DNA from: Ardenticatenia bacterium
Lineage (GTDB): Bacteria > Chloroflexota > Anaerolineae > 4572-78 > NAK82
Direction of reading: 5' to 3'
DNA length: 64,000 bases
Assembly (NCBI GenBank): GCA_003130875.1
Contig: QEXY01000114.1
Span: 29,254 to 93,253, forward strand
The notes below the pieces were generated by a model. It was not told where the DNA came from. It saw only the letters and a list, made by a program, of their open reading frames with translations, and did no database searches. Shown piece after piece: positions 26,615 to 64,000 of this stretch; position 1 is the stretch's first letter; each line of letters begins with the position of its first letter. Both the position numbers and the translations under genes were made by a program.

Positions 26615-27368
26615 GCGAGGGCTAGCAGTGATAATTTTGGCGGCCGGCCAGGGCAAACGGATGCACTCCGACCTGCCCAAGGTATTGCATCCGCTGCTGG
26701 GACGTCCGATGATCGCTTATGTGCTGGATGCGGCGCGCGCACTTCACCCGGAACGTCTGGTGGTCGTGGTGGGACACAAGGGCGATCAGGTGCGCGCGGC
26801 GCTCGGCGATGGAGTCCTCTTTGCCGAGCAAAAGCAGCGCCTGGGTACCGGACATGCCGTGTTCCAGGCGCGTGCAGCGGTGGGCGATTGCAAAACGGTG
26901 TTGGTGTTGTATGGGGACATGCCGCTGCTGCGCGCAGAAACGTTGCGCGCGCTTTACCAACTGTACCGCAGCAACAACGCTCCCATTGCCATGCTTGTGG
27001 TGCGCGACACCGTATCACGCGGGTTTGGACGTATCATCCGGGATGCGTCGGGACGGGTACAGGCGATTGTCGAAGAGGCAGAATGCACGCCCGAGCAGCT
27101 GACCATCACGGAGCTCAATCCGGGCGTTTATTGCTTTGATGCCGATTGGTTGTGGCAGCACCTGCCGAACCTGCCCTTGCATCCTGACAAGGGAGAAGCG
27201 GGCGAGTACTTTCTCACCGATTTGGTAGCGATGGCGGTTGCGGAAGGACATACAGTGCACGATATGCTCACCACCGATTCTCTTGAGGCGTTTGGCGTCA
27301 ACACGCCGGAACATCTGGCTGAGGCTGAAGCAGCGCTCAAACGTCGTCTTCAAACCGAGGAGGTGTAG
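26601..27368 (+). CDS. GlmU-like NTP transferase (pyrophosphorylase domain only)
   Basis: VIILAAGQGKRMHSDLPKVLHPLLGRPM; GTG start overlapping upstream gene. Confidence 0.9.
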   Translation: MKLVERGLAVIILAAGQGKRMHSDLPKVLHPLLGRPMIAYVLDAARALHPERLVVVVGHKGDQVRAALGDGVLFAEQKQRLGTGHAVFQARAAVGDCKTVLVLYGDMPLLRAETLRALYQLYRSNNAPIAMLVVRDTVSRGFGRIIRDASGRVQAIVEEAECTPEQLTITELNPGVYCFDADWLWQHLPNLPLHPDKGEAGEYFLTDLVAMAVAEGHTVHDMLTTDSLEAFGVNTPEHLAEAEAALKRRLQTEEV

Positions 27369-27375
27369 TTCATCT

Positions 27376-28089
27376 ATGCTCAGGTCGGAGGATTTCTTCG
27401 ATTTATCGCGTTATGCCCATCGTGAGTTGTTCTGTGACCGACGTGTTATCTACGTTTGGGATGTGTTGAAGCTGCTCAAGGAATATCTCGAACACATAAT
27501 AAAGCCGGAAATCCAGGGCGAGGTCATGCCGGGTGCCTATATCGTCGGAGACCATATTTTCATCGGCGCCGGTTCGGTTGTGGAGCCGGGCGCGCTTATC
27601 AAAGGGCCGGCGTACATCGGACGCAACACCCAGGTGCGTCACGGAGCGTATGTGCGGGAACGCGTCCTGATCGGTGACTATTGTGTCGTCGGCCATGCTA
27701 CCGAGATCAAGGACACCATTATGCTGGACAATGCCCATGCGGCACACTTCGCCTATCTGGGGGATAGCATTGTGGGCAATCACGTTAACCTGGGCGCTGG
27801 CACGCGCCTGGCTAACTTGAAGCTGGACGGCTCCAACGTGCGGGTACGTTTCGGCGACGAGATACTGGACACCGGTATGCGCAAGCTGGGTGCCATTCTG
27901 GGCGACCGGGTACAGACCGGCTGTAATACGGTGACTAACCCGGGCACCCTGTTGGCGCCCGATTGTCGCGTGTATGCGTTGACATCGCCGCGCGGTTACT
28001 ACCCGCCAGGGAGTATTATCCGACCAAGCAGCGGAGTGGAAACGATTGTGATGCGCCAATCGGGTATGGCGGAAGGGCAGGGTTCATAA
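27376..28089 (+). CDS. Left-handed beta-helix acyltransferase-like protein (GlmU C-terminal-like)
   Basis: Hexapeptide repeats GAYIVGDHIFIGAGSVVEPGALIKGPAYIGRNTQVRHGAYVRERVLIGDYC. Confidence 0.85.
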   Translation: MLRSEDFFDLSRYAHRELFCDRRVIYVWDVLKLLKEYLEHIIKPEIQGEVMPGAYIVGDHIFIGAGSVVEPGALIKGPAYIGRNTQVRHGAYVRERVLIGDYCVVGHATEIKDTIMLDNAHAAHFAYLGDSIVGNHVNLGAGTRLANLKLDGSNVRVRFGDEILDTGMRKLGAILGDRVQTGCNTVTNPGTLLAPDCRVYALTSPRGYYPPGSIIRPSSGVETIVMRQSGMAEGQGS

Positions 28090-28092
28090 AAA

Positions 28093-29499
28093 GTGGGATC
28101 CGATGTGGGTGCGTCGCTGGTGCTCTTTCTTCTGTTGGTTCTGTCTCATGCGTTCTTTGTCGCCGCAGAGGTTGCCATCGTCTCGCTGGACAAGGCGCGT
28201 CTGAGCTTGCTGACAGAGGAGAGGCATGGTGCAGCCCGTTTAATCGAACGTTTTGCACATAACCCTATATATCTATCGGTCACCACGCAGCTGGCCACCA
28301 AATCGTTGATCTTCCTGGCTGTGGTGCTGGCCCTTGTGCACTATAGCCCTCTGCTGACGGCGCAGCTTGCGCAGCTCACCCCGGGATGGTCGACTGTGAC
28401 GCATCAGTCACTCGCGGTCGGTCTGATCGCTCTGGTGCTGATGCTAGTGATGGTTTTCTTGGGTGAGATGGTGCCACGCGTCGTCGCAGCACGCTATCCT
28501 GAGCGGGTGGCGACGCTGACCATTTATCCTGTAACCTTGCTGGGGTTCATTGCTTCACCGATCGCGCGCGCTGGCATGGCGTTGAACGCCTGGTTAACCG
28601 GCACACCTGTTGCGGTCATAGGCGCCAACTTGCCAACCGTCACCGAAGAGCAGATCAAGACCTTGGTAGATGCCGGGGAAGAAGGTGGCATCATCGAAGA
28701 AGAAGAACGCGAGATGATCTATTCCATCTTTGAGCTGGGCGACACGTTGGCACGCGAGGTGATGGTACCACGGATCGATATGGTCGCGTTAGAGGTCAAC
28801 GCGAGCATCGAGGAAGCACTGCGCGTGATCGTGGAAGCCGGACATTCGCGCATTCCAGTCTATGACGAGACGATCGACAACATTGTAGGCATCCTCTACG
28901 CTAAGGACATCCTGAAACACTGGCCGCATCTTGAAACATTGCATCTGCGCGACATTCTGCGTGAACCCTACTTCATTCCGGAGACTAAGCCAGTAGATGA
29001 GCTCCTGCAAGAGTTGCAACGGCGCAAGGTCCATATAGCTATTGTCGTGGACGAGTACGGTGGGGTGGCGGGCCTGGTCACGATCGAGGACATCCTTGAG
29101 GAGATCGTGGGTGAGATTCAGGATGAATACGACTCTGAAGAGCCCTCGCTGGTACTGCTCAGCCCGGATGAAGCAATCTGCGAAGGGCGCACCGACTTGG
29201 ACGACATCAATGAGGCGCTTCACGCTGAGTTGCCCACAGACGTGAGCGACACGGTGGGTGGGTTGATTTACAGCTGCCTGGGTCGTGTCGCTGTGGTAGG
29301 TGATCAGGTGCGTTTCGGCGACCTGGAGCTCACCGTGCTGGCCGTCACAGGACGCCGTATTAAGAAGGTACGCGTGAAACGGCTGCCCATAGATCAAGCG
29401 GCGAGCTCGATGATCTCGTGCGGCGATGGAAATGTTCTCTCTCCTAAAACACCGCCGGCGCCATCATTGCCCTCAGAGAGCCAGAGCATTGTCGGATGA
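28093..29499 (+). CDS. Hemolysin/CorC (CNNM) family protein with CBS domains
   Basis: EEEREMIYSIFELGDTLAREVMVPRIDM; CBS pair; transporter-associated C-terminal domain. Confidence 0.92.
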   Translation: MGSDVGASLVLFLLLVLSHAFFVAAEVAIVSLDKARLSLLTEERHGAARLIERFAHNPIYLSVTTQLATKSLIFLAVVLALVHYSPLLTAQLAQLTPGWSTVTHQSLAVGLIALVLMLVMVFLGEMVPRVVAARYPERVATLTIYPVTLLGFIASPIARAGMALNAWLTGTPVAVIGANLPTVTEEQIKTLVDAGEEGGIIEEEEREMIYSIFELGDTLAREVMVPRIDMVALEVNASIEEALRVIVEAGHSRIPVYDETIDNIVGILYAKDILKHWPHLETLHLRDILREPYFIPETKPVDELLQELQRRKVHIAIVVDEYGGVAGLVTIEDILEEIVGEIQDEYDSEEPSLVLLSPDEAICEGRTDLDDINEALHAELPTDVSDTVGGLIYSCLGRVAVVGDQVRFGDLELTVLAVTGRRIKKVRVKRLPIDQAASSMISCGDGNVLSPKTPPAPSLPSESQSIVG

Positions 29500-49218: not shown

Positions 49219-49878
49219 GCTTCGCACGTGCGCCATCACAGTGGTAGCGGGTGCCGTGCTCCAGCTGGCTGTGGGCCTTAGTGCGGCGCTATTGGTGAAT
49301 CGGGAGTTCCGGGCCGGAGCGCAGTTGTATCCCTGTTGTTGATTCCGACCACCATTGCCCCGGTGGTGGTAGGTTTTGTATTCCGTATGATTTTGAATGA
49401 CCGCTTTGGTCCTCTCAACTACTTCCTCAAAACTGGTCGGGTTACCTGCGGTGCCGTGGCTCTCGAATCCGACAGCCGCTGTGGCCGGGATCGTCCTTGC
49501 CAATGGCTGGGAGTGGTTCCCGTTCGTGATGTTGGTTGCGCTAGCTGGCTTGCAATCTATCCCTCAGGAGCTGACGGATGCGGCTATGGTGGACGGCGCA
49601 TCCAGCTGGCAACTTTTCTGGCGTGTGACGCTGCCGCTCCTAATGCCAATCGTGATCGTGGTGGTTCTGATCCGAGCGATTGAGGACCTCAAGCTGTTTG
49701 ACATCATCATGTCACAACCGGAGGAGGACCTGGGATCGCGACGCAGACGATGAACATGTACGCCTACCAGCGTGGATTCAACTTCTTCAGTATTGGTTAT
49801 GCCTCAGCACCCTCATATGTGCAATTGATTATCACGTTGCTCATGGTGCGGGCACTGTTTGGCAGGCTTTCCCGCTGA
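49205..49878 (+). pseudogene. Decayed sugar ABC transporter permease (MalF-like)
   Basis: Fragments in different frames: VVAGAVLQLAVGLSAALLVNREF; LLIPTTIAPVVVGFVFRMILND; GLQSIPQELTDAAMVDGASSWQLFWRVTLPLLMP; MNMYAYQRGFNFFSIGYA. Confidence 0.85.
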
Positions 49879-49893
49879 AATTGAGGAGAGAGC

Positions 49894-50709
49894 ATGAAAC
49901 GCAGAGCATCTGCAATCCGATTCTTGTTGATCGGGATACTGCTTATCATAACGTTGTTCCCTCTATACTGGATGGTGATCAACTCTTTCAAGCGCACGGG
50001 TGAGTTCTTCACCGATCCTCCGCAGTTCATTCCGCCACGGGTGGATCTGAAAGCTTATCAGGATTCGCTGCAAACCACCGGGGGTAAGGGGCTCCAGGAC
50101 AGCTTGATCATCGCCACTTCCACGATGATCCTTTCGGTTGGTCTGGGTTGTATGGGGGCTTATGCCGTTGCACGCTATCGGTGGGGAGGCAAGAACTTCA
50201 TTTTGCTGTTGCTCGTGATCCAGATGCTCCCTCCTGTGTCTATCGCTTTGCCGTTGTTCATCCTTTTTGATAAGCTGAAGCTGCTTGATACATATTATGG
50301 CCTTATCACTGCGGACACGGTGTTCAATCTACCCTATGCTATCTGGCTTTTGCAAGGTTTCTTTCAGGAGATACCGGTTGAGATCGAAGAAGCTGCTCTT
50401 GTGGACGGTAGCTCTCGCTGGCAGGTCTTCACTCGAATTGTGTTGCCGCTCAGTCTGCCGGGTTTGGTAGCGGTGTCCTTCTTCACATTTATTTTCGCCT
50501 GGAACGAATTCATCTTGGCCTTTATTTTCTCCCGTTCTCGGGTCACTCCGCTCACTGTCGTGATCCCAGCTATGGTGGGTGCGGACACCATTCTGTGGGA
50601 GCGAGTATATGCGACAAGTCTTATTGCAATTGTGCCAGTGATTATCCTGGCATTATTGCTCCAGCGTTACCTGGTACGAGGATTGACGTTTGGTGCCGTG
50701 AAAGGTTGA
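49894..50709 (+). CDS. Carbohydrate ABC transporter permease (MalG-like)
   Basis: LFPLYWMVINSFKRTGEFF; GFFQEIPVEIEEAALVDGSSRWQVFTRIVLPLSLPGL EAA motif. Confidence 0.93.
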   Translation: MKRRASAIRFLLIGILLIITLFPLYWMVINSFKRTGEFFTDPPQFIPPRVDLKAYQDSLQTTGGKGLQDSLIIATSTMILSVGLGCMGAYAVARYRWGGKNFILLLLVIQMLPPVSIALPLFILFDKLKLLDTYYGLITADTVFNLPYAIWLLQGFFQEIPVEIEEAALVDGSSRWQVFTRIVLPLSLPGLVAVSFFTFIFAWNEFILAFIFSRSRVTPLTVVIPAMVGADTILWERVYATSLIAIVPVIILALLLQRYLVRGLTFGAVKG

Positions 50710-52853: not shown

Positions 52854-53687
52854 ATGAGGCGTTCGGACGTGGCGAATTGCATCCAGTCTCTGGCAGCGCC
52901 GCAGCCGGCTGTACGCTGGCAGGCCGTCGCGCGCCTTGCCGAAGGGGCACCGCGATCGCGCGAGGCGTTGACCGCTCTCGAGGCAGCGCTCCGAGATGAG
53001 CATCCCTTCATGCGCTGGCACGCGGCGCGCGCATTGGTGCGCGCCCGCACGCGCGAAGCGCAGGCAATCTTGTACAATGCCCTGAGCGCAGGCTCTCCGC
53101 CCGTCCAGGCCGCCGCCCTGGATGCCCTGAGCCAGCTGCGCGGCGCGGATGTGGCACAGCTGCTGCACGCGCTGGAAAGTCCCGACGCACTGGTGCGCCA
53201 GAGCGCCCTCGAGGCACTCACCCGTCAGCGCGCCCATGCGGTGGCGCCACGTCTGATCGCGTTGCTGCGCGATCCCGCTCCAGGCGTGCGCAGAGCTGCT
53301 GCCAGTGCCCTGGCACATATGGGGGACGAACACGCCATCTCACCGTTGATCGAGCGGCTCGGCGACGAGTCTCCGCTGGTACGACGCAGCGCCGCCTATG
53401 CCCTGGGCGCGCGCCGTGCACGCACGGCATTGTCCGCGCTGATCCATGCGCTGGATGACCCGCAGCCCGAAGTGCGCTACACCGCCGCCTGGGCACTCGG
53501 CCGAATCGGGGCACCCGCTGCTATGCCGCACCTGGAGAAACGGCTCCGTGACACCGCTCTGGACGGTATGGTGGCCGCCGAAGCAGCACGCGCCATCGCG
53601 ACAATCACGTGCCGGGGATGGCGCAAACTGGGATGTCTGTTCAAACGCAGCGAGAGATCGCAACCGATTGTCGAGGGCGTGCGATGA
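52854..53687 (+). CDS. HEAT-repeat protein
   Basis: Repeated ~31-aa units, e.g. ISPLIERLGDESPLVRRSAAYALGARRARTALSALIHALDDPQPEVRYTAAWALGRIG. Confidence 0.93.
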   Translation: MRRSDVANCIQSLAAPQPAVRWQAVARLAEGAPRSREALTALEAALRDEHPFMRWHAARALVRARTREAQAILYNALSAGSPPVQAAALDALSQLRGADVAQLLHALESPDALVRQSALEALTRQRAHAVAPRLIALLRDPAPGVRRAAASALAHMGDEHAISPLIERLGDESPLVRRSAAYALGARRARTALSALIHALDDPQPEVRYTAAWALGRIGAPAAMPHLEKRLRDTALDGMVAAEAARAIATITCRGWRKLGCLFKRSERSQPIVEGVR

Positions 53688-53977
53688 ACGTGCCGGGCAC
53701 GAGCTTGTCGGATTGGATCGCACACCAATTGGTTCGTCGACGGCTGGTAGTCCCTGCCATCGCGTTCGGGTATGCGCACAAGCCGCTCGGTTTTGTGGGC
53801 GCCCAGCTGCTGCTGCTCCTGCAACCGCTTCTGGACATCTTGTTTCCGCGCCGCTGGATCGAAGAGGGGATAGCGCTCCTGGCCGATCGCGACGGATGGG
53901 ATGCTCTGCTCCGGCGGCTGGAAGCTTGCCAGGCCGAATCGCCTGCGGCGGGTCGGCATCATGGGCATCGGCGGTGA
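53684..53977 (+). CDS. Hypothetical protein
   Basis: ATG overlaps the HEAT gene stop; collinear with downstream genes. Confidence 0.6.
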   Translation: MNVPGTSLSDWIAHQLVRRRLVVPAIAFGYAHKPLGFVGAQLLLLLQPLLDILFPRRWIEEGIALLADRDGWDALLRRLEACQAESPAAGRHHGHRR

Positions 53978-53980
53978 CGG

Positions 53981-54724
53981 GTGAACGAAACGCAACGCGT
54001 CCTGCTGGGTTTGTTGCTCGTTTTTATCGCGGCATGGGTGGTCGGCCGGCGGCGTGCCGGCAGATGGCTGCCCGACGAGTGGCGGGCGATCCCGGCCTTC
54101 GAGCGGCTGCCCAGCGCCATCCAGCGCGTCGTTGAACAGGGACGGGCGCTTCACATCACGTTGGGCCGGGGCAGCCTATGGAGCGGGGTGGCGATGGACA
54201 GCTTGGCCGGTATAGAGGTATTGAAGTTCATAGCCCGGCGTTTGCGTTTGACCGGCCAGATGCCGCTTGTGACCACCGGAGACGCCACGCTGCATCTCCT
54301 GGCGGAGGACCAGGTCCATCGCCTGGGATGCGGCCAGGCCAGCGGTTTGTCCCAGGCGAAGCCGGATGTCCGCTGGTTGACCGCGACGCCGCCAGCTTAT
54401 GCCACCGGTGTTATGGGGATACTGGCGCACGAGCCCGTCGAGGTCAATGTGATGACCGGGTTCTTCGGCGCCGAATATCTGTTGATGGGCGAAGCGGGCG
54501 CGCAACGCGTGGCCGTGCCGCTGGGGGGCGCCAGCGAACCCGGCGTGCTGCCCTTCGTGTTCGCCACCTCGCGCGCGGCCCTTCTGGGTGAAGAGCTGTA
54601 CGCGGCGGGCGCGTACCTCGCCCATCAGCCGTGGCACCTGGGCAGTTTGTGGGCGCAAGATGTCGTGCGTTGGCTCATCGTGTTGGCCCTCATCGTCGCC
54701 GTGCTCGTGAACACCTGGCTATAG
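53981..54724 (+). CDS. DUF6754-like membrane protein
   Basis: N- and C-terminal TM; FERLPSAIQRVVEQGRALHITLGRGSLWSGVAMDSLAGIEVL. Confidence 0.7.
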   Translation: MNETQRVLLGLLLVFIAAWVVGRRRAGRWLPDEWRAIPAFERLPSAIQRVVEQGRALHITLGRGSLWSGVAMDSLAGIEVLKFIARRLRLTGQMPLVTTGDATLHLLAEDQVHRLGCGQASGLSQAKPDVRWLTATPPAYATGVMGILAHEPVEVNVMTGFFGAEYLLMGEAGAQRVAVPLGGASEPGVLPFVFATSRAALLGEELYAAGAYLAHQPWHLGSLWAQDVVRWLIVLALIVAVLVNTWL

Positions 54725-54780
54725 GAGTGCGCTGGACCGTCTTCACGGGGTTGCCTGTGCCCTGATGGAGGAGATGCCTC

Positions 54781-55431
54781 TTGGCAAGTCGCCTGGTCTC
54801 GGTATCGGTTGCAATGGGAGTGGGGTTGCTGGTGCTGGCCCGCTACTTCATCGCGGACGCGCAGCTGGACGCTGTGGTCAACCAATTGCTCTCCATCGCT
54901 TCGGTGGTGGCCGCTTTCGCGTTGTTCTTGGGGCTGGCCAACCTGGCGCGCTTTCACCTGGATCGGGTGCGTGCCCACTCCTCGCAGCGTCTGTATAGCG
55001 CTATCTTGCTGGCGGCACTGGCTGCCACGGTCACGTTGGGCTTGATCGGCGGTGGACCTAACGCGCCATGGATGCAACTTGTGTTCAACAGTGTGTTGTT
55101 CCCTCTGCAGGCTGCGCTCTATGCGCTGCTGGCATTCTTTATCCTCACCGCCACCTACCGCGCCTTCCGAGTCCGCAATGTCGAGAGCGCCCTGTTCGTG
55201 ATTTTCGCCCTCGTGGTGTTGCTCGGGCAGACCCCGGCGGGCGCGCTGTTATGGGAAGAACTGCCCGCGATCAAGGATTGGGTTTTTGATGTGCCTGTCC
55301 TGGCCGGCACCCGTGGTATCCTCATCGGCGTGAGCCTGGGCACCCTGGCCACCGGGATACGGGTGTTGTTCGGTGTGGACCGGCCGTATGTTGAGGAGAC
55401 AGGGAGAGATACCCATGGCCATCTGTCCTAA
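54781..55431 (+). CDS. Multi-TM membrane protein of unknown function
   Basis: Several hydrophobic helices; TTG start; overlaps next gene by 17 nt. Confidence 0.7.
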   Translation: MASRLVSVSVAMGVGLLVLARYFIADAQLDAVVNQLLSIASVVAAFALFLGLANLARFHLDRVRAHSSQRLYSAILLAALAATVTLGLIGGGPNAPWMQLVFNSVLFPLQAALYALLAFFILTATYRAFRVRNVESALFVIFALVVLLGQTPAGALLWEELPAIKDWVFDVPVLAGTRGILIGVSLGTLATGIRVLFGVDRPYVEETGRDTHGHLS

Positions 55432-57922
55432 CTGTGGCACCTCCAACCCGGCAGGCAGCACGCGCTGCACCCAATGCGGCCAGCCCTTGGAGGTGATTCC
55501 GAATTGGTTGGAGCTTCTCCTGGCACGGTATGGGGAGGCGATGCCCGCCTTTGAGGGTATTTCGGCCGAACGCGCATCGGCAGTTGCCCCGACCAAACCG
55601 TTCGTCGCACAACGCCCTGCGCCGGAGCAGCCCCAGCCGTCGCGGGAGGTGGCGCCGGAGGATGTCGAGCTGCTGGAGGAACTCGAGCGGCTCAAACAGT
55701 TATCCGGGTCAGAACAGCCCGCCTCGGCGGAGACACCACCCTCCGCGGAGACGAGCGCAGCGGCTGCGCCGTCCACCGCTCCAAAAGAAGTGGACGACTG
55801 GCTGGCCGAGCTGCGCGCTTTGCAGGAGAAAGCCGCTCTGGATGCGGCGCCGGCGATGCCATCCGAAGAACGTCCGCCGGAAACGGCGCCCCAGGTGTCG
55901 CGTGAACCCCATCCAGAACGCGAAACGTCCCCGTCGCTCGAATCCTTGGTCGAAGCTGCTCCGACGCCGCCGGCGGAGACTCCGCTCCCCTCGCTCGAGG
56001 AGAGGCTGAGTGCGCTGACGTCCCCTGCGGAAACAGCGGAGACGGAGGAAGGTACCCCCGCGCAGTCCGTGCCAGAATGGCTGCAGGAGCTCGGTCTGGT
56101 ACAAGCGGAACAGGCCCCTGCCCCTCCGAGTGGCGAGTCGGGCGAGTTAGGTGAGACGCTAGGCCCTCTGCCCGTGGTAGAAGCGGAGCGACCCGGCGAG
56201 GCGGGTGAGGTCTCCGCCGACGAGGACATCCCGGACTGGCTGCGACGCCTTATCGCCATTTCCTCCCAGACACCCGAGGCACCCCCCGCCGGCGAAGAGG
56301 CCGAGCCGACACAAGCTCTTGTGCGAAGCGAGCCAGAAGCGCCGCCGGCCGCCGAGCTGACGGCGGAAGAGGAGCTGCCCGATTGGTTGCGCGAATTGGA
56401 GGCGGCGCAGACGGCCCGGCTCAGCACCCCCACAGCGCCCGCAGCAAGCGAGGTCATCCCACCACGCGTTGATGAGGCGGCCAAGGCAGCCACAGGGGTG
56501 CCGGAAACGGTCGTTCCACCCCTGCCGCAAGCTGCGGAAGCTGGCGTCCCCGCTGTCCAACAGGAGGAGGGGTCTCCCGCCGGCGCGGAGGAACAGACGG
56601 CTGACTGGCTCGCCGAATTAGAGGCGCTGGTCGAACGTCCGCCTGTTGCCCCGCCGCCACCCCCTCCGGCCGAGGAAGAGGAAGTGCCAGACTGGTTGCG
56701 CGAGCTGACCGCGGAGAAACCGGCAGCCGAACGCGCAGTGCAAGCGCCTGCGGTGCCGGAAGTTCCTCAGCCAGAAGCAGCCCCATTGCCGGAATGGGTC
56801 AGCCGGCTGCGACCCACCGAGCTCACCGCGGAAGCCCCCTCGGTGGAGGCGGCCGCTGTGCCTCCCGAAGCGAGCGCCGCGCCGAGCGGAGAGGATGTGA
56901 TCGAAACATTGCGTGCCCGCCTGGGCGTTCCGCAGGTGCCCGACGTAGAGGGCGCGGAAATGTTTCGCGAGATCGTCGGTGAACCGGCCGAGATGGCCTC
57001 CACACCCGTTCCAGAGGAAGTGGAGATGGCGCCGCGGCGCAGCTTGGCCAGCGTCATCATCTGGGCGCTGATCTTTGCAGCTCTCCTGTTGGGAATCGCC
57101 ATCCTGTCGCTCGCCGTGCTGACGCGCATTCAAGAGCTGTTGGGAGCGACCGCCTTCCAGCGCTTCTTGAACACCCCGGCAGCAGCGGGATTGCTCGCTT
57201 CATTGGAAGGATTTCGAAAGCCCGTCACCGCGATCCATCCAGGCGAGGTGGTGTTGCTCAGCATCGACTACACCCCTGCCACCGCCGCGGAAATGCAGCC
57301 GCTGGCCTCGGTCGTGCTGCGCGACCTGCTTGCGCAGCGGGCACGGGTGCTGACGGTGAGCTTACAGCCTGAGGGAGCCCCCCTGGCACAACAGCTCCTG
57401 GAAGGGGTGGCCGGCACGTATCCGTATGGAGAAGCCACCTTGAATCTGGGTTATCTGCCCGGCGAGGCGATCGGCGTGCGCAGCTTAGCCCATCTGCGCA
57501 CGCGGCCAGTCTATGGCTGGCCGCACGCCCCATGCCGGTCTTTGGGCGAATGCCCTGGTTGGAAGGACGTCCAGCGCATAGAGGACATCGCGCTTTTCAT
57601 CACCGTGGCCGACTCGGCCGAGTCGGCGCGTTGGTGGATCGAACAACTCCCCAGGATGTCCTCTGGCGCGCTGCCGATGCTGGCGGCCGTGAGTGCCGCC
57701 GCGCTGCCCACCATGCGCCCCTACCTGATCTCCGCTGCGGCAGCGCCATCGCGGCTGACCGGGCTCATCGGCGGGATGATGATGGCCGCCACTTACGAGG
57801 TATATACGGGCAGCCCAGGCCGTGCCCTGGACATGGTGGCAGCCCAGTCGGCTGCCCATTTGGGATTGGTCGCGGTCGCATTAGCCGGCATCTTTGCGGG
57901 AATCCGAGCACGGACACCGTGA
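55415..57922 (+). CDS. Zinc-ribbon protein with Pro/Glu-rich linker carrying repeated P[DE]WLxxL motifs and C-terminal TM region
   Basis: MAICPNCGTSNPAGSTRCTQCGQPL; eight WL motifs; TM LASVIIWALIFAALLLGIAILSLAVL. Confidence 0.85.
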   Translation: MAICPNCGTSNPAGSTRCTQCGQPLEVIPNWLELLLARYGEAMPAFEGISAERASAVAPTKPFVAQRPAPEQPQPSREVAPEDVELLEELERLKQLSGSEQPASAETPPSAETSAAAAPSTAPKEVDDWLAELRALQEKAALDAAPAMPSEERPPETAPQVSREPHPERETSPSLESLVEAAPTPPAETPLPSLEERLSALTSPAETAETEEGTPAQSVPEWLQELGLVQAEQAPAPPSGESGELGETLGPLPVVEAERPGEAGEVSADEDIPDWLRRLIAISSQTPEAPPAGEEAEPTQALVRSEPEAPPAAELTAEEELPDWLRELEAAQTARLSTPTAPAASEVIPPRVDEAAKAATGVPETVVPPLPQAAEAGVPAVQQEEGSPAGAEEQTADWLAELEALVERPPVAPPPPPPAEEEEVPDWLRELTAEKPAAERAVQAPAVPEVPQPEAAPLPEWVSRLRPTELTAEAPSVEAAAVPPEASAAPSGEDVIETLRARLGVPQVPDVEGAEMFREIVGEPAEMASTPVPEEVEMAPRRSLASVIIWALIFAALLLGIAILSLAVLTRIQELLGATAFQRFLNTPAAAGLLASLEGFRKPVTAIHPGEVVLLSIDYTPATAAEMQPLASVVLRDLLAQRARVLTVSLQPEGAPLAQQLLEGVAGTYPYGEATLNLGYLPGEAIGVRSLAHLRTRPVYGWPHAPCRSLGECPGWKDVQRIEDIALFITVADSAESARWWIEQLPRMSSGALPMLAAVSAAALPTMRPYLISAAAAPSRLTGLIGGMMMAATYEVYTGSPGRALDMVAAQSAAHLGLVAVALAGIFAGIRARTP

Positions 57923-58578
57923 GCGCGGAAACGATCCTGGCTGCCGTCTTGACATTTATGATATGGTCGTACATCTTGGGCGACAACCCTGCCTTCCGCA
58001 TCGCCGAGCACATACTGGTCGGCACTGCAGCCGGCTATGTGGCCGTCCTCGCGTGGGGGCATATCATCTGGCCCGCCTTGCACGCGATGTGGTCACAACC
58101 CAGTCCAGCGACCGTGTTGCCGTTCCTCCTGTGCGCCTTGCTCGCGGCGCGCCCATGGCCGTTGCTGCGACCATGGGCGGCTGTCTCACTGGCATTCCTG
58201 ATCGGTGTGGGCAGCGCGCTGGCTGTCGGCGGCGCTCTGTTCGGCACTTTGTGGTCGCAGGTGTTGGCGACGGCCAGTTTGTCGCTGAATCCGGCAGACT
58301 GGGATGAAGCCCAAATGTTTCTGACCAGCAACGCGTTCTGGCAAAACCTGGCGATCGTGATCGGCACGATCGGTACGTTCTGTTACTTCACGTTTCGCAT
58401 CCGTCCAGGCGGCCCATTGCGGGATCTGCGCGCCGCCTTCATCCGCTTCTGGAGCGGGGTGGGGCTCTGGATGATGATGATAACGCTGGGCGCGCTCTTC
58501 GCCAGCGCCGCGATGTCGCGGTTCACGCTGCTGATCGACCGCGTGCAATGGCTTTTGGGGATATTCGAACTGAGGTGA
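57919..58578 (+). CDS. Multi-TM membrane protein of unknown function
   Basis: VSAETILAAVLTFMIWSYILGDNPAFRIAEHILVGTAAGYVAVLAWGHIIWPAL; GTG start overlaps upstream stop. Confidence 0.75.
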   Translation: MSAETILAAVLTFMIWSYILGDNPAFRIAEHILVGTAAGYVAVLAWGHIIWPALHAMWSQPSPATVLPFLLCALLAARPWPLLRPWAAVSLAFLIGVGSALAVGGALFGTLWSQVLATASLSLNPADWDEAQMFLTSNAFWQNLAIVIGTIGTFCYFTFRIRPGGPLRDLRAAFIRFWSGVGLWMMMITLGALFASAAMSRFTLLIDRVQWLLGIFELR

Positions 58579-58582
58579 GCGT

Positions 58583-60400
58583 TTGAAGCAGCCGGGTCAC
58601 AACCTTTTGGTCGCCGATATCGGGAGCACGATGACCACCGTGGCGCTCATCGAGCGCGTCAACGGCCGCTACCGCTTCGTGGCACGCGGGGAATCCCTCA
58701 CCACCCACGGATGGCCGTGGTCGGATGTGACGGTGGGCCTGCGTGCCGCCGCGCGGCAGATCGAGCAGCTGATGGGGCGCGCGCTCTTCCGTCGCGACGG
58801 AACGCTCATCCGACCGCGCACCGTCCACGGCGACGGCGTGGATCTCTGCATAGCCGTGAGTAGCGCAGCCGCGCCGATGCGCGCCGTCCTGATCGGTTTG
58901 ACGGGCATGAGCGTTCGCAGTGGGCAGCGCGCGCTCGCCTCCGCGGCTGGCGTCCAGCTGGTGGACTGCCTGTCCCTTGACGATGGACCGGAGTGGCGCG
59001 ATCCCAATACCTGGATGGCTGCCCTGCGTCGTGCACGGCCTGAGATCGTGATCCTCGTGGGCGGATGTGATGGCAGTGTCAGCCAGCCGATGCGCGACCT
59101 GATCCACCTCGTCGCTTTGTACAACCGGCTGTTGCCGTCCGCCGAACGTCCGCTGGTGTGCTATGCCGGCGACGCCCGGCTGGCTGAAGTGGCCGCTCAA
59201 GCGTTCGCCGGCGCAGGCGAGCTCCGCGTTTTGACCAACGTGCGCCCGTCTCCGGAAACCGAGAACGTCCTCCGCACGGCGGGGGAGATCGAAGCGCTCT
59301 ACTGCGAACGGCGGTTGATGCACACGCCCGGAATGGACGCTGTGGCGGAGTGGACTGAAGGCGGGGTGCCCCCTACGGCACGCTCCTTCGCGCAGCTGAT
59401 CCATTACGTGGGCGCACGCTATGGGCTGAATGTCATCGGCTTCGACATAGGCGGCGGTCAGATCACGCTGGCGTCCTATGAAGGCAGAGCGCTCGACGGC
59501 ACGCCCGCATTGCCGGGGGATGTGGATAACGTGAATCGCACTGTCCGCGCCGACCTGGGAGTCGGGTGGAACATCCCATCTGCGTTGCGGCAGATCACCC
59601 TCGAACAGATCGCACGTTGGCTGCCGGACGAGGTGGACGCCGAGCAGATGCAGGAGATCTTGCTCCATAAGAGCCTGTATCCTCACAGCGTGCCGGCCGA
59701 GACGACCGAATGGCTCGTGGAATATGCTCTCGCACGCGAGGTGATGCGCAGCGCGTGGGCAGCGCACCGCGAGCTCCTCGCAGCCAAAGGGTGGGATCTG
59801 ATCCTGGGCAGCGGCCGCATCCTGACGCGTTCCCTCGCCGCGCCCGGTCACACCGCCCTGTTGTTTTTGGATGTGTTGCAACCGGTCGGGGTCACGCAGC
59901 TGGCTCTGGACGTGGGCAACATCGCCACCACGTTGGGTGCAATGGCAAAGCACAACCCGCTCGCCGCTGCCGATCTGGTGGAATATGACGCCTTCTTGAC
60001 GTTGGGCACTTTGGTGGCGGTCGCGGGCTGCCCGGTTCGCGGAGATATCGCCGTGCGCCTGAAGATGAGATGCCACGACGGAAACACCTGCGAGGAAGCG
60101 GTGCCCTGGGGAACGTTGCGGGTTGTGCCATTGCCCCCATATTGCTCGGGAACATTGGCTTTGTATCCGGCGCGGAAGGTCGATGTAGGGATAGGCCGGC
60201 CCGGCACCGCTGCCGCAGTCGAAGTCGAGGGGGGCACGTTGGGCATTCTGGTGGACGCGCGCGGACGCCCCCTGTCCTTCCTGCCCGAAGCCCATGCGCG
60301 CCGCCAGGTGGTGCGCAGCTGGTTAGAGGACGTGCAATCCAGGCAGTTCCGCCTTGCGGCGGCACAGGCGCCTGCGGAGCGCCTGCGGCCGGCGGCATAG
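58583..60400 (+). CDS. MutL/GlmL-like ASKHA-fold protein
   Basis: NLLVADIGSTMTTVALIE, VIGFDIGGGQITLASYEG, LDVGNIATTLGAMA. Confidence 0.85.
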   Translation: MKQPGHNLLVADIGSTMTTVALIERVNGRYRFVARGESLTTHGWPWSDVTVGLRAAARQIEQLMGRALFRRDGTLIRPRTVHGDGVDLCIAVSSAAAPMRAVLIGLTGMSVRSGQRALASAAGVQLVDCLSLDDGPEWRDPNTWMAALRRARPEIVILVGGCDGSVSQPMRDLIHLVALYNRLLPSAERPLVCYAGDARLAEVAAQAFAGAGELRVLTNVRPSPETENVLRTAGEIEALYCERRLMHTPGMDAVAEWTEGGVPPTARSFAQLIHYVGARYGLNVIGFDIGGGQITLASYEGRALDGTPALPGDVDNVNRTVRADLGVGWNIPSALRQITLEQIARWLPDEVDAEQMQEILLHKSLYPHSVPAETTEWLVEYALAREVMRSAWAAHRELLAAKGWDLILGSGRILTRSLAAPGHTALLFLDVLQPVGVTQLALDVGNIATTLGAMAKHNPLAAADLVEYDAFLTLGTLVAVAGCPVRGDIAVRLKMRCHDGNTCEEAVPWGTLRVVPLPPYCSGTLALYPARKVDVGIGRPGTAAAVEVEGGTLGILVDARGRPLSFLPEAHARRQVVRSWLEDVQSRQFRLAAAQAPAERLRPAA

Positions 60401-60402
60401 GG

Positions 60403-61569
60403 GTGTCCGCGGTGGAGCGATCCGGAATGGCTGCCGGCAAGGTGGACGAATCCGCGCAAGGGTCACCTCTGGTGCCCGTCGTCCGATGTGAAGCGTGGGC
60501 GCGGGTGCGGGTCGAACGCGGCCTGCCCGCGACGGCGGAAGTGCTCGTCCGAGAGGGAGAGCCCGTGCGGGCGACTCAGGTGATCGCACGCGCCCCAAAT
60601 GGCAGATCGCACCGCGTGCACATTGTGGACGTGGCGGGTACGTTGGATCTGCCGGGGCGCGAGGTGTCGTCGGCCATGGTGAAGCAACGGGGTGAGCGCG
60701 TACACGTCGGCGAACTGCTCGCCGCGCGGCGCAGTGTGCTGCCATTCGCCTATCGCGCGTGCCGTTCGCCGGTCGACGGCCAGCTGAGGATGGTCTGGTA
60801 CGGCTGGGCGGTAATCGAAATGGACGCGGATGAAGGAGATGTCCTGGAGATCACTGCTCAGGTGGATGGATCGGTTGTTGCGGTGGTGCCTGGCAGCTAT
60901 GTGACCATCGAGACTGAGGCGGCATGGATCGAGGGCGTCTGTGGTACGGCAGGGGAAGCGTACGGCATGTTGCAGGTCGTGCGCCAACCCTCCGCAACGC
61001 CGTGGATGCCGGAAGAGCTGCCCGAGGACGTCGCGGGAGCGATTTGGGTGGTGGATGGTTCCGTCTCGCGACCCGCTTTGGAGCAGGCGGCGGCGATGGG
61101 TGTGAAAGGGCTGATCGCCGCCGGCATTTCGGTCACTGCTTCGGAGGTCGCCACGTTGCCCGTGATGGCGACGGAGGGGTACGGGGTGCAACGCATGGCG
61201 CCGGAACGGCTGCGACTGTTTCAGGAGCTGGAGGGTTGTTATGCGACCCTGATCGTGCCTTCGGAACACACGCCCCCGTGGTCACGCCGCCGGCCGGTCG
61301 TCATCGTGCCGCGCGCGTCGCCGAGCCATCCCGAGGACGACCCGCAGAGCGCGCTGCGGCTGCGGCGTCCGCTATGCCCGGGCGACCGCGTCCGCGTCGT
61401 GCGTGCTCCGCGGGCAGGTCAGTGGGGGGTCGTCGCGGCCGAGATGGGAGACAGGCAGATTGCCACTCCCTCTGGGGCGATCGCGGCCGGTGTGGAAGTG
61501 CGCTTCTCCGCCCATGACGTCGCCTGGCTGCCGTATCTCAATTTGGAGCGCATCGTGTGCACCGCATAG
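60403..61569 (+). CDS. Hypothetical protein with lipoyl/barrel-sandwich-like segments
   Basis: REGEPVRATQVIARA, VKQRGERVHVGELLAARRSVLPFAYRACRSPVDGQL; GTG start. Confidence 0.6.
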   Translation: MSAVERSGMAAGKVDESAQGSPLVPVVRCEAWARVRVERGLPATAEVLVREGEPVRATQVIARAPNGRSHRVHIVDVAGTLDLPGREVSSAMVKQRGERVHVGELLAARRSVLPFAYRACRSPVDGQLRMVWYGWAVIEMDADEGDVLEITAQVDGSVVAVVPGSYVTIETEAAWIEGVCGTAGEAYGMLQVVRQPSATPWMPEELPEDVAGAIWVVDGSVSRPALEQAAAMGVKGLIAAGISVTASEVATLPVMATEGYGVQRMAPERLRLFQELEGCYATLIVPSEHTPPWSRRRPVVIVPRASPSHPEDDPQSALRLRRPLCPGDRVRVVRAPRAGQWGVVAAEMGDRQIATPSGAIAAGVEVRFSAHDVAWLPYLNLERIVCTA

Positions 61570-61604
61570 GGTGCATTTAGAGAGAACAGAGAGGAGCAAC
61601 GGTC

Positions 61605-62075
61605 ATGGCAAACAACAACAAGTTGTTCGTGATCATCGCCATCTTCCTGGTGGGCATGTTGGTTCTGGGGTTGTTCGCGATCGGCGGGGTGGTCATTTTC
61701 GGCACGATCAACCGACAATCGGCCCGTCCCACCCCGACCGCGACCCTGGCGGTGGCCAAATTGCCCCCTGCGCCGACGATAACCTCCACCCCCACTGCCA
61801 CGCCATCGCCCACCCACACGCCATTGCCCACGCCGACCAACACCCCGGTGGTGCAGGCGACGGCGACCCCGAGCGTCATCGAAAGCGCTCCAGAGGTGAG
61901 CGGGCAGGCGGAAGCACCCATCCCAGCGCCCACCTGGACGCCGGCACTTGAAGCTTCCGTGGCGGCGGAGGAGAGCACCCCCGAGACGGGCATCGGCGGC
62001 TTGGAGATGGTGTTGATCGCCGTGGGATTGGTGGGTGTGTTGTTCATCGCCCGGCGCTTGCGCACCAGTGGTTGA
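61605..62075 (+). CDS. Small membrane protein with Thr/Pro stalk
   Basis: TM, TPTATLAVAKLPPAPTITSTPTATPSPTHTPLPTPTNTP, C-terminal TM. Confidence 0.75.
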   Translation: MANNNKLFVIIAIFLVGMLVLGLFAIGGVVIFGTINRQSARPTPTATLAVAKLPPAPTITSTPTATPSPTHTPLPTPTNTPVVQATATPSVIESAPEVSGQAEAPIPAPTWTPALEASVAAEESTPETGIGGLEMVLIAVGLVGVLFIARRLRTSG

Positions 62076-62082
62076 GGCGCGC

Positions 62083-62370
62083 CACGGGATCAAACCCACG
62101 GCCGGCAACCCCATCAGGGGGCACGGCATGCCGCGCCTCTGCCCCGGGCTGGCAGCAGATCGAGAGCCCGTCAGAGATTGAGCGCCAGCCGTGGGCTTCA
62201 GCCCGCGGGCAGCCACATCATCCGTGGAGGTGTGCGGCAACACCACGCCGCAGCTCAAACGCGCTCCTAAAAGATCCCACCTCTATGGAGACGGGGTTGG
62301 AGGAGCAACCCGGGCGGTTGGCACACGAGCTGCCCTACGGGCAGGCACGCGGTTTGCCCCTACAGGATGT
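62083..62370. repeat. Intergenic palindromic (REP-like) sequence cluster
   Basis: AAACCCACGGCCGGCA and GCCAGCCGTGGGCTTCAGCCCGCGGGC in inverted orientation; CTGCCC-TAC-GGGCAG hairpin. Confidence 0.5.
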
Positions 62371-62421
62371 TGGGATACGGTTGAGCATTGTGGAACGACG
62401 GAATCAGGAGGATTATGTGAG

Positions 62422-62811
62422 GTGAGACGACAGCGTACCAGCTTTTGGGAGACATTGCGCTATCGAGGTGGCATCGGAGCAGCGGTGTGGGTCTTGCACC
62501 GCGTCACTGGGCTGGGCATCCTCTTGTTGGTGAGCGTACACGTCATGGCAGCCTTCTTGATGAATGCTCTCGATGATCCGATCTCCACGGCCGTCACCCG
62601 CTGGTACGAATCGCGCCCCGTCCAGGTCTTCGTCTACTTCTGCGTGCTGTACCACGCTCTGAACGGGCTGCGCGTCTTGTTGGAGGATCTGTGTCCTCCA
62701 TTGTTGCGGCATCATCGGGAGCTGATCTGGCTGCAGTGGGCGATTTTCATCCCGGTGTTCGGGTTGCCCGCCTTTTTCATCGCGCAGGGCATCGTGATCG
62801 GGAATCCATGA
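62422..62811 (+). CDS. sdhC: Succinate dehydrogenase cytochrome b subunit
   Basis: WVLHRVTGLGILLLVSVHVMAAFLMN; FCVLYHALNGLRVLLEDL. Confidence 0.88.
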   Translation: MRRQRTSFWETLRYRGGIGAAVWVLHRVTGLGILLLVSVHVMAAFLMNALDDPISTAVTRWYESRPVQVFVYFCVLYHALNGLRVLLEDLCPPLLRHHRELIWLQWAIFIPVFGLPAFFIAQGIVIGNP

Positions 62812-62831
62812 GGAAGGGGGCAGGGACGGGT

Positions 62832-63245
62832 ATGCGGAGATTGGACGAGCGCAACGGCCTGGAATATTATCTATGGCTCTTCACACGGCTGAGTGCCATC
62901 CTGATGCTATGTGCCGGCGCTGCCGGCATCGTGTACGCCAACCTATGGGGACGGACGCTGATGGACGCGCCGGCACAATACCGCTGGGCTTTCTTCCCCA
63001 TCTACTGGCACGTCCAGAACACCGATGTGCCGGATGTCTTCCCAGTGTGGTCGAATGCTTTCTGGCGCGTCTGGTGTACCATTTTGCTCTTCCTCGCCTC
63101 CTGGCATGGTTTCAACGGCCTGCGCGTCGTGGTCGAGGACTACCTGCATCCCCCGGTGCTCCTGATCCTGGTCAAGGGATTCATCGGATTGCTGTTCATG
63201 TTCGTGTTCGGCGCTGGAACGGTGATCATCTTCGAGTGGTTCTGA
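62832..63245 (+). CDS. sdhD: Succinate dehydrogenase membrane anchor subunit
   Basis: LEYYLWLFTRLSAILMLCAG; LASWHGFNGLRVVVEDYLH. Confidence 0.85.
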   Translation: MRRLDERNGLEYYLWLFTRLSAILMLCAGAAGIVYANLWGRTLMDAPAQYRWAFFPIYWHVQNTDVPDVFPVWSNAFWRVWCTILLFLASWHGFNGLRVVVEDYLHPPVLLILVKGFIGLLFMFVFGAGTVIIFEWF

Positions 63246-63266
63246 GAAGGGCGATCAACACGTGCT

Positions 63267-64000
63267 ATGCAAGATATGACTCCGTTGCACAAGTATGACA
63301 TCGTGATTGTCGGCGCCGGCGGGGCTGGGCTGGCAGCCGCCTTGTATGCCGCGCGCAGCGGTGACGTGCGGGTAGCGGTGCTCTCGAAGATGTTGCCGGT
63401 GCGCTCACACACTGGCACAGCCCAAGGAGGCATCGGCGCGGCGTTGGGCAACCACGAGGAAGATCACCCGGAATGGCACGTGTTCGACACGATCAAGGGG
63501 AGCGATTATCTGGCCGATCAGGACGCCGTGCGCGTCCTGTGTTATGAGGCGGTGGAACTGGTCTACGAGCTGGAGCATATGGGCCTGCCGTTTGACCGCA
63601 CCCCCTCTGGCCGCATCGCGCAGCGCCCCTTTGGCGGCCACACCAACAACGTGACCAAACAACCCGTGCGTCGCGCCTGCCATGCCGCGGACCGCACCGG
63701 ACATATGATCCTCCAAACCCTTTACCAGCAATGTATGCGCCACCGGGTCGTCTTTTTTGATGAATTCCAGGTCCTGGATGTGCTCCTGAACGAGGGGGTG
63801 GCGACGGGGGTGGTGGCGCTTGAGATGGCCACCGGCCAGTTGCACGTCTTCCATGCGCGGGCGGTGATCTTCGCCACCGGGGGATGGGGCAGGGTGTGGC
63901 AGATCACCAGCAACGCGCACAGCTTCACCGGCGATGGAGCGGCGATCGTCCTGCGCCGCGGCATCCCCCTCGAAGATATGGAATTCTTCCAGTTCCACCC
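63267..64000 (+). CDS. sdhA: Succinate dehydrogenase flavoprotein subunit (truncated by window end)
   Basis: [48 protein letters not shown]; open at 64000, not in ORF track. Confidence 0.95.

Follow-up and report, generated by a model that had tools for sequence, protein, structure and literature searches.

An apparently undescribed, conserved Chloroflexota gene cassette encoding a MutL-like actin-fold protein, a zinc-ribbon/WL-repeat protein and membrane proteins

The cassette and its conservation across Chloroflexota

The window analysed here, a stretch of 64,000 nucleotides from an Ardenticatenia bacterium of the phylum Chloroflexota (assembly GCA_003130875.1, contig QEXY01000114.1, positions 29,254 to 93,253), contained at 52854-62075 a cassette of nine plus-strand open reading frames (g1 to g9), the ends of which overlap or almost touch. 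It appears to be an undescribed, conserved and mostly membrane-bound system with an ASKHA (actin-fold) protein and a zinc-ribbon protein carrying "WL" peptide motifs; the literature search found no account of the cassette or system, and no paper mentioning DUF6754, the family of one of its membrane proteins. An initial annotation had described nine packed same-strand genes with overlapping start and stop codons, and all nine reading frames were recovered together with the overlaps listed below. Its HEAT, DUF6754, zinc-ribbon and MutL labels were borne out by Pfam, and these were the only parts to receive names from Pfam and NCBIfam; in the Pfam search of the window proteins, g2, g4, g6, g8 and g9 matched no family above threshold. 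The features are as follows (TM, transmembrane segment; aa, amino acids).

g1, 52854-53687, plus strand: HEAT-repeat protein (Pfam HEAT_2, E = 1e-47), a family-level addition heading the cassette
g2, 53684-53977, plus strand: protein of 97 aa with a single hydrophobic stretch; ATGA overlap with g1
g3, 53981-54724, plus strand: DUF6754 protein (Pfam PF20539, E = 1e-31, 110.5 bits against a cut-off of 27), predicted TM, Rossmann-like alpha/beta domain, TM
g4, 54781-55431, plus strand: membrane protein with about six TM by hydropathy
g5, 55415-57922, plus strand: predicted fusion of zinc ribbon, disordered WL-repeat region, TM, outside Rossmann-like domain and TM; its start overlaps g4
g5 zinc ribbon, plus strand: Pfam Zn_Ribbon_1, E = 2e-6
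g5 WL-repeat region, 55502-56800, plus strand: six PxW[LV] motifs at aa 29, 220, 273, 322, 425 and 459, and DWL at aa 128 and 397
g5 C-half (g5C), 57035-57919, plus strand: member of a membrane quartet, with predicted TM anchor, Rossmann-like domain and C-terminal TM
g6, 57919-58578, plus strand: multi-TM protein with the conserved motif GDNxxFRxA...GY; GTGA overlap with g5
g7, 58583-60400, plus strand: MutL/GlmL-like ASKHA protein of 605 aa (Pfam MutL PF13941 at aa 9-467, E = 5e-56, 191 bits against a cut-off of 27)
g7 C-terminal extension, 59984-60397, plus strand: D-x-R-G-R-P signature (DARGRPL in the window), beyond the MutL profile
g8, 60403-61569, plus strand: soluble protein with a barrel-sandwich-hybrid-like N-terminal part and a C-terminal KOW/SH3 domain
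g9, 61605-62075, plus strand: exported TP-rich protein with an LPxTG-like C-terminal sorting signal (TPETG...TM...RR)

The conservation of this arrangement was surveyed in 201 Chloroflexota genomes, in which DUF6754 was present in 44 and PF13941 above its cut-off in 83, and 22 loci from 11 families were examined gene by gene. The genes g3-g4-g5-g6-g7 were collinear on one strand in all 22 loci, with a g2 orthologue ahead of g3 in 20 of them, and g8 followed g7 in most, being missing in families f21 and f31. A collection scan with a six-row g6 alignment as query retrieved 80 further loci, all named as Chloroflexota except one Fermentibacteria metagenome-assembled genome and one unplaced bacterium, and the closest named relatives of g6 were from "Anaerolineae bacterium SKYB15" and "uncultured Ardenticatenia bacterium". 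The order g2 to g9 was constant in these loci save at contig ends, 39 of them were complete, and g7 lay immediately behind g6 in 66 of the 70 with enough contig. One cassette locus (L124) belongs to Bellilinea caldifistulae, a species that can be cultured. Since g3 to g7 are collinear in 22/22 loci and 80 more have the same order, the neighbourhood is not a product of chance. Both outcomes that the initial annotation had named as fatal to its reading, namely the lack of a conserved neighbourhood in related genomes and a mutase gene nearby, were looked for, and neither occurred.

The conserved core is g2 to g9, and the nine-gene block is valid locally. Within the window's family, the HEAT gene lay ahead of g2 in each of the six genomes examined; outside the family but within the order it did so in one genome, and it headed the cassette nowhere else among the examined loci, a confinement by which it was rejected as a core part. 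Succinate dehydrogenase genes (sdhC/D-like and sdhA) occupy 62191-64000 of the window, downstream of the cassette; they were likewise rejected as a core part, following the cassette only in the genus (sister species G201). Farther upstream, at 49336-50003, a sugar ABC permease frame is apparently split over two or three frames, reflecting a frameshift, decay or an assembly error.

Membrane quartet, WL module and their meeting in g5

The core genes resolve into two modules that occur separately elsewhere. Module A is a membrane quartet consisting of g3 (DUF6754), g4, the g5 C-half and g6, and module B comprises the zinc-ribbon/WL protein with its membrane anchor, g7 and g8. Fermentibacterota contain homologues of g3, g4, g5C and g6, in the same order where all four were recognised, with g5C as a separate gene; unlike the window cassette, these quartets come without zinc ribbon, WL repeats, g7 or g8 and are multi-copy, with 4-7 DUF6754 copies arranged in quartets in each of three genomes (L206-L222). 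Conversely, the Chloroflexota families f18, f26, f42 and f44 are without DUF6754, yet contain a zinc-ribbon WL protein followed by g7 and usually g8, and these three are the only common genes of the quartet-less Chloroflexota loci. In such loci the quartet domain of the WL protein is replaced by a short basic tail or an amphipathic stretch, or by a TM segment in f28. The g5 of the window is a fusion of a zinc ribbon and WL tether with the g5C domain of the quartet. Because g5 fuses the two otherwise separate modules, a Rosetta-stone argument ties the WL segment to g7. The proposal of a membrane-bound system in the initial annotation therefore stands in that an undescribed, conserved system with an ASKHA protein and a zinc-ribbon/WL protein was found, but the HEAT scaffold it invoked is just local, and the system consists of two modules joined via g5 rather than one block.

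In Fermentibacterota, some quartets have a kinase (HAMP histidine kinase or Ser/Thr protein kinase) or a HAMP-SpoIIE phosphatase as neighbour, and one quartet type lies behind an SH3b-TM gene, raising the possibility that the quartet senses or signals at the membrane and can be combined with different outputs, of which the g7/g8 module would be the Chloroflexota version. We regard this as improbable, considering that the pattern comes from three genomes, in which some quartets have other neighbours, and that none of the proteins of the Chloroflexota cassette had a signalling domain in the Pfam search.

Structure prediction by AlphaFold gave a Rossmann-like domain between two TM helices both for g3 (mean predicted local distance difference test score, pLDDT, 88.7) and for the g5 C-half (pLDDT 87.8). 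Profile comparison detected no homology between the two, although both were modelled as TM, Rossmann-like domain and TM. Searched against the PDB, the g3 model had no significant or close fold (best E = 5e-3, template-modelling score 0.38), and the g5 C-half model had no significant match. From the charge distribution, the g3 domain is probably cytosolic and the g5C domain probably outside, so that they would face opposite sides of the membrane.

The lipoyl-like segments noted earlier in g8 correspond in part to weak matches of its N-terminal part to barrel-sandwich hybrids (RnfC_N/RNAP hybrid), to which a C-terminal KOW/SH3 profile match to Spt5/NusG (E = 7e-7) has to be added, and g8 adjoins g7 also where the quartet is missing. 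The product of g9, initially described as a TP-rich stalk, is indeed TP-rich and exported, but its LPxTG-like sorting signal indicates that it is more than a stalk. It combines an N-terminal hydrophobic signal with an LPxTG-type motif (TPETG in the window), a TM and a basic tail, and many of its 57 orthologues end in LPxTGF-TM-RRLR; sortases were found in 21/21 related genomes checked, consistent with g9 being a sortase substrate.

The MutL-like protein g7 and the WL repeat

By its Pfam score, g7 is a member of the PF13941 ASKHA superfamily, and its closest named relatives are the GlmL and OR-4 accessory proteins. Its ATP site is well retained across 34 g7 proteins, with phosphate-1 D/E and G in 34/34, phosphate-2 D in 29/34 and G in 33/34, and the adenosine G in 34/34, so that the ASKHA ATP-binding motifs are present and a few members vary at phosphate-2. 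Annotation pipelines would label such a protein MutL on its 191 bits, which suggests an ordinary GlmL mutase accessory beside unrelated membrane genes. This explanation is refuted for glutamate mutase and is left with a negligible probability overall. Against the curated equivalog models g7 scored only 67.7 bits for GlmL (cut-off 475) and 84.3 bits for OR-4 (cut-off 600), and in a maximum-likelihood tree four canonical GlmL-type proteins formed one clade with support 100/98, leaving all g7 proteins outside. In agreement with the initial annotation, which saw no mutase genes with the MutL-like protein, glutamate mutase E (PF06368) had no match in the window's own genome, and it was absent from the g7 genomes with the sole exception of G176, in which a canonical GlmL, separate from g7, adjoins the glutamate mutase. 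Unlike GlmL and OR-4, g7 also carries the extra DxRGRP region, with D and R kept in 34/34 proteins, and is linked to membrane proteins. Hence g7 is not a glutamate mutase helper.

Nor does g7 belong to the FtsA family, given that it did not match the family model TIGR01174 and reached the Pfam FtsA domain merely at E = 0.05. A canonical FtsA is encoded beside FtsZ in the same genome, on another contig. Because canonical FtsA turned up across the whole sample of 201 genomes, g7 is no replacement for a missing FtsA, and this candidate role was discarded.

The WL motifs seen in g5 by the initial annotation proved to be a defined repeat. In 102 g5 proteins, 904 PxW[LIVMA] motifs were counted versus 61 in composition-matched shuffles, with 0 to 48 per protein, and the consensus over these orthologues was [ED][LVI]P[DA]WL[RQ][ED] (example peptides EDIPDWLRRLIA and DEDIPDWLRRLIAIS); quartet-less genomes contained the extended form S-L-[IV]-D-x-x-A-L-P-x-W-L-R. 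The motif, written as [DE][ILV]PxWLR, resembles the FtsZ tail DIPAFLR with F in place of W, FtsZ tails in the same genomes following D[DLM]x[IV]P[ATP]FLR[RKN] (e.g., DDLDIPAFLRR; EMDIPAFLRRHR in the window's own genome). In Escherichia coli, FtsA and ZipA are among the proteins that bind the FtsZ tail DYLDIPAFLRKQAD, and their binding depends critically on I374 and L378 (PMC4117426); these two residues align with conserved hydrophobic positions of the WL motif. PilM, likewise an ASKHA protein, binds a short cytoplasmic tail peptide of PilN (PMC7613929, PMC4471445). From these two precedents we therefore infer that g7 may be the reader of the WL motifs.

The likeness to FtsA-FtsZ lies in an ASKHA gene adjoining a disordered tether with [DE][ILV]Px(W/F)LR peptides and in membrane tethering. 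It differs in that g7 is of MutL type rather than FtsA type, that a membrane protein, not FtsZ, bears the peptides, in tandem arrays of up to 48, and that canonical FtsA and FtsZ exist separately from the cassette. With PilM-PilN it shares an ASKHA gene in an operon with a membrane protein whose peptide lies in the cytoplasm and whose alpha/beta domain lies outside, together with further membrane partners, whereas the cassette proteins had no PilM, PilN or PilO match in Pfam or NCBIfam, the cassette is without pilin or traffic ATPase, and repeats take the place of one tail.

Since same-genome FtsZ tails are almost WL motifs and canonical FtsA occurs throughout the phylum sample, the repeats might instead mimic the FtsZ tail and serve as ligands for the cell's resident FtsZ-tail binders, such as FtsA or SepF, in which case g5 would link the complex to the division machinery or compete with FtsZ, and g7 would act otherwise. 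The distribution of the two peptides makes this distinctly unlikely. Genomes of family f44 retain WL repeats with FtsZ lacking the DIPxFLR tail and with divergent FtsA matches, whereas those of f17 retain the FtsZ tail and have no WL repeats, so the WL reader is not simply FtsA; in addition, the aromatic position of the motif is W and not F in 902/939 cases, and the WL protein is genetically linked to g7 and g8, not to ftsA. As a side observation, FtsZ of f44 (L234, L242, L247) ends in basic or aromatic sequence.

A reactivase or chaperone-type role for g7, as supposed for GlmL with mutases, would have it use ATP for remodelling either g8 or the quartet's Rossmann-like domains, the WL repeats serving bulk clustering, condensation or another purpose. 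Its nearest named relatives and the persistence of the g7-g8 pair without WL in f17 and f25 are in line with such a role, but the cassette has no associated enzyme or cofactor protein, and quartet-less genomes share just the WL protein, g7 and g8; on balance, we think it unlikely.

Recognition of the WL peptides by g7 might extend beyond g5. A whole-genome motif search detected a second WL cluster in the window's own genome and its relatives, far from the cassette, on a TPR protein in which 9-12 WL repeats separate the N-terminal from the C-terminal TPRs (L292:4678-7095, corresponding to about 26677-29094 of G000:C2 in the own genome; L293:4254-6773; L294:5043-7946). Beyond g5 and this protein, the search gave isolated matches about as often as did the reversed control pattern. 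The TPR domain occurred in 84/201 genomes, and at least two WL motifs were carried by 10 of 37 TPR proteins tested from g7 genomes and by none of the 16 from genomes lacking g7 (Fisher p = 0.02, ignoring phylogeny). This distribution weakly supports the WL motif as a shared interaction motif of the system, and the TPR-WL protein is likely a client or partner of the cassette. In one genome without g7 (G088, L327), the orthologous TPR protein has tandem DWRA[DE]LRE instead of WL repeats.

A tentative mechanism and its meaning for Chloroflexota

Given the conserved gene order, the separable modules and the two precedents for peptide reading, it is reasonable to suggest, at somewhat short of even chances, a membrane complex in which g5 would act as a multivalent scaffold that recruits g7, its WL peptides being bound by g7 and perhaps also by g8. 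We infer that the proteins physically assemble into one complex, with g3 and the g5 C-half forming a membrane platform together with the multi-TM proteins g4 and g6, from which g5 would send its disordered multivalent WL tether into the cytoplasm. There, g7, possibly with g8, could grip the WL peptides as FtsA grips the FtsZ tail or PilM grips the PilN tail, so that the tether might gather many g7 molecules under the quartet, leading to their concentration or polymerisation, and the TPR-WL protein and other clients bearing the motif could be drawn to the same hub. Depending on ATP, g7 would then change conformation or polymerise, with effects on the quartet that would carry over to the envelope, the proposed anchoring site of g9. 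The cellular role might be sought in envelope assembly, the cytoskeleton or signalling.

Nevertheless, several observations weigh against recognition of the WL peptides by g7. Family f17 has g7 and g8 but no WL repeats, and in f25 and parts of f5, where both genes are likewise kept, there are hardly any repeats. At three Anaerolineae loci (L178, L191, L171), g2 to g6 or g5 and g6 are kept with no g7 downstream, as judged from the locus only, and two of these have 8-11 WL motifs; the genes after g6 at these loci are unrelated (a YbeY-like protein and a diacylglycerol-kinase-like protein). Furthermore, so short a motif might form an amphipathic helix that engages a different partner, the association of TPR-WL with g7 takes no account of phylogeny, and the evidence points to no particular cellular function.

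A broader version can be formulated, in which a phylum-wide cytoskeletal or envelope machine would have a MutL-type actin-fold ATPase polymerise or cluster on an FtsZ-tail-like tandem tether, with a general WL code also displayed on soluble TPR clients, and thereby drive a four-protein membrane complex. We consider this version doubtful.

If WL peptides do bind g7, this would add to FtsA-FtsZ and PilM-PilN a third case of peptide recognition by an ASKHA protein, and a role would be explained for GlmL-like proteins in organisms without mutases. DUF6754 gains a context as part of a four-gene membrane module common to Chloroflexota and Fermentibacterota. Hundreds of Chloroflexota proteins, including some now labelled "glutamate mutase MutL" or "zinc ribbon", would all be assigned to a single conserved membrane system with a tandem peptide motif as its organiser, providing a candidate cytoskeletal or envelope machine for this little-studied phylum.

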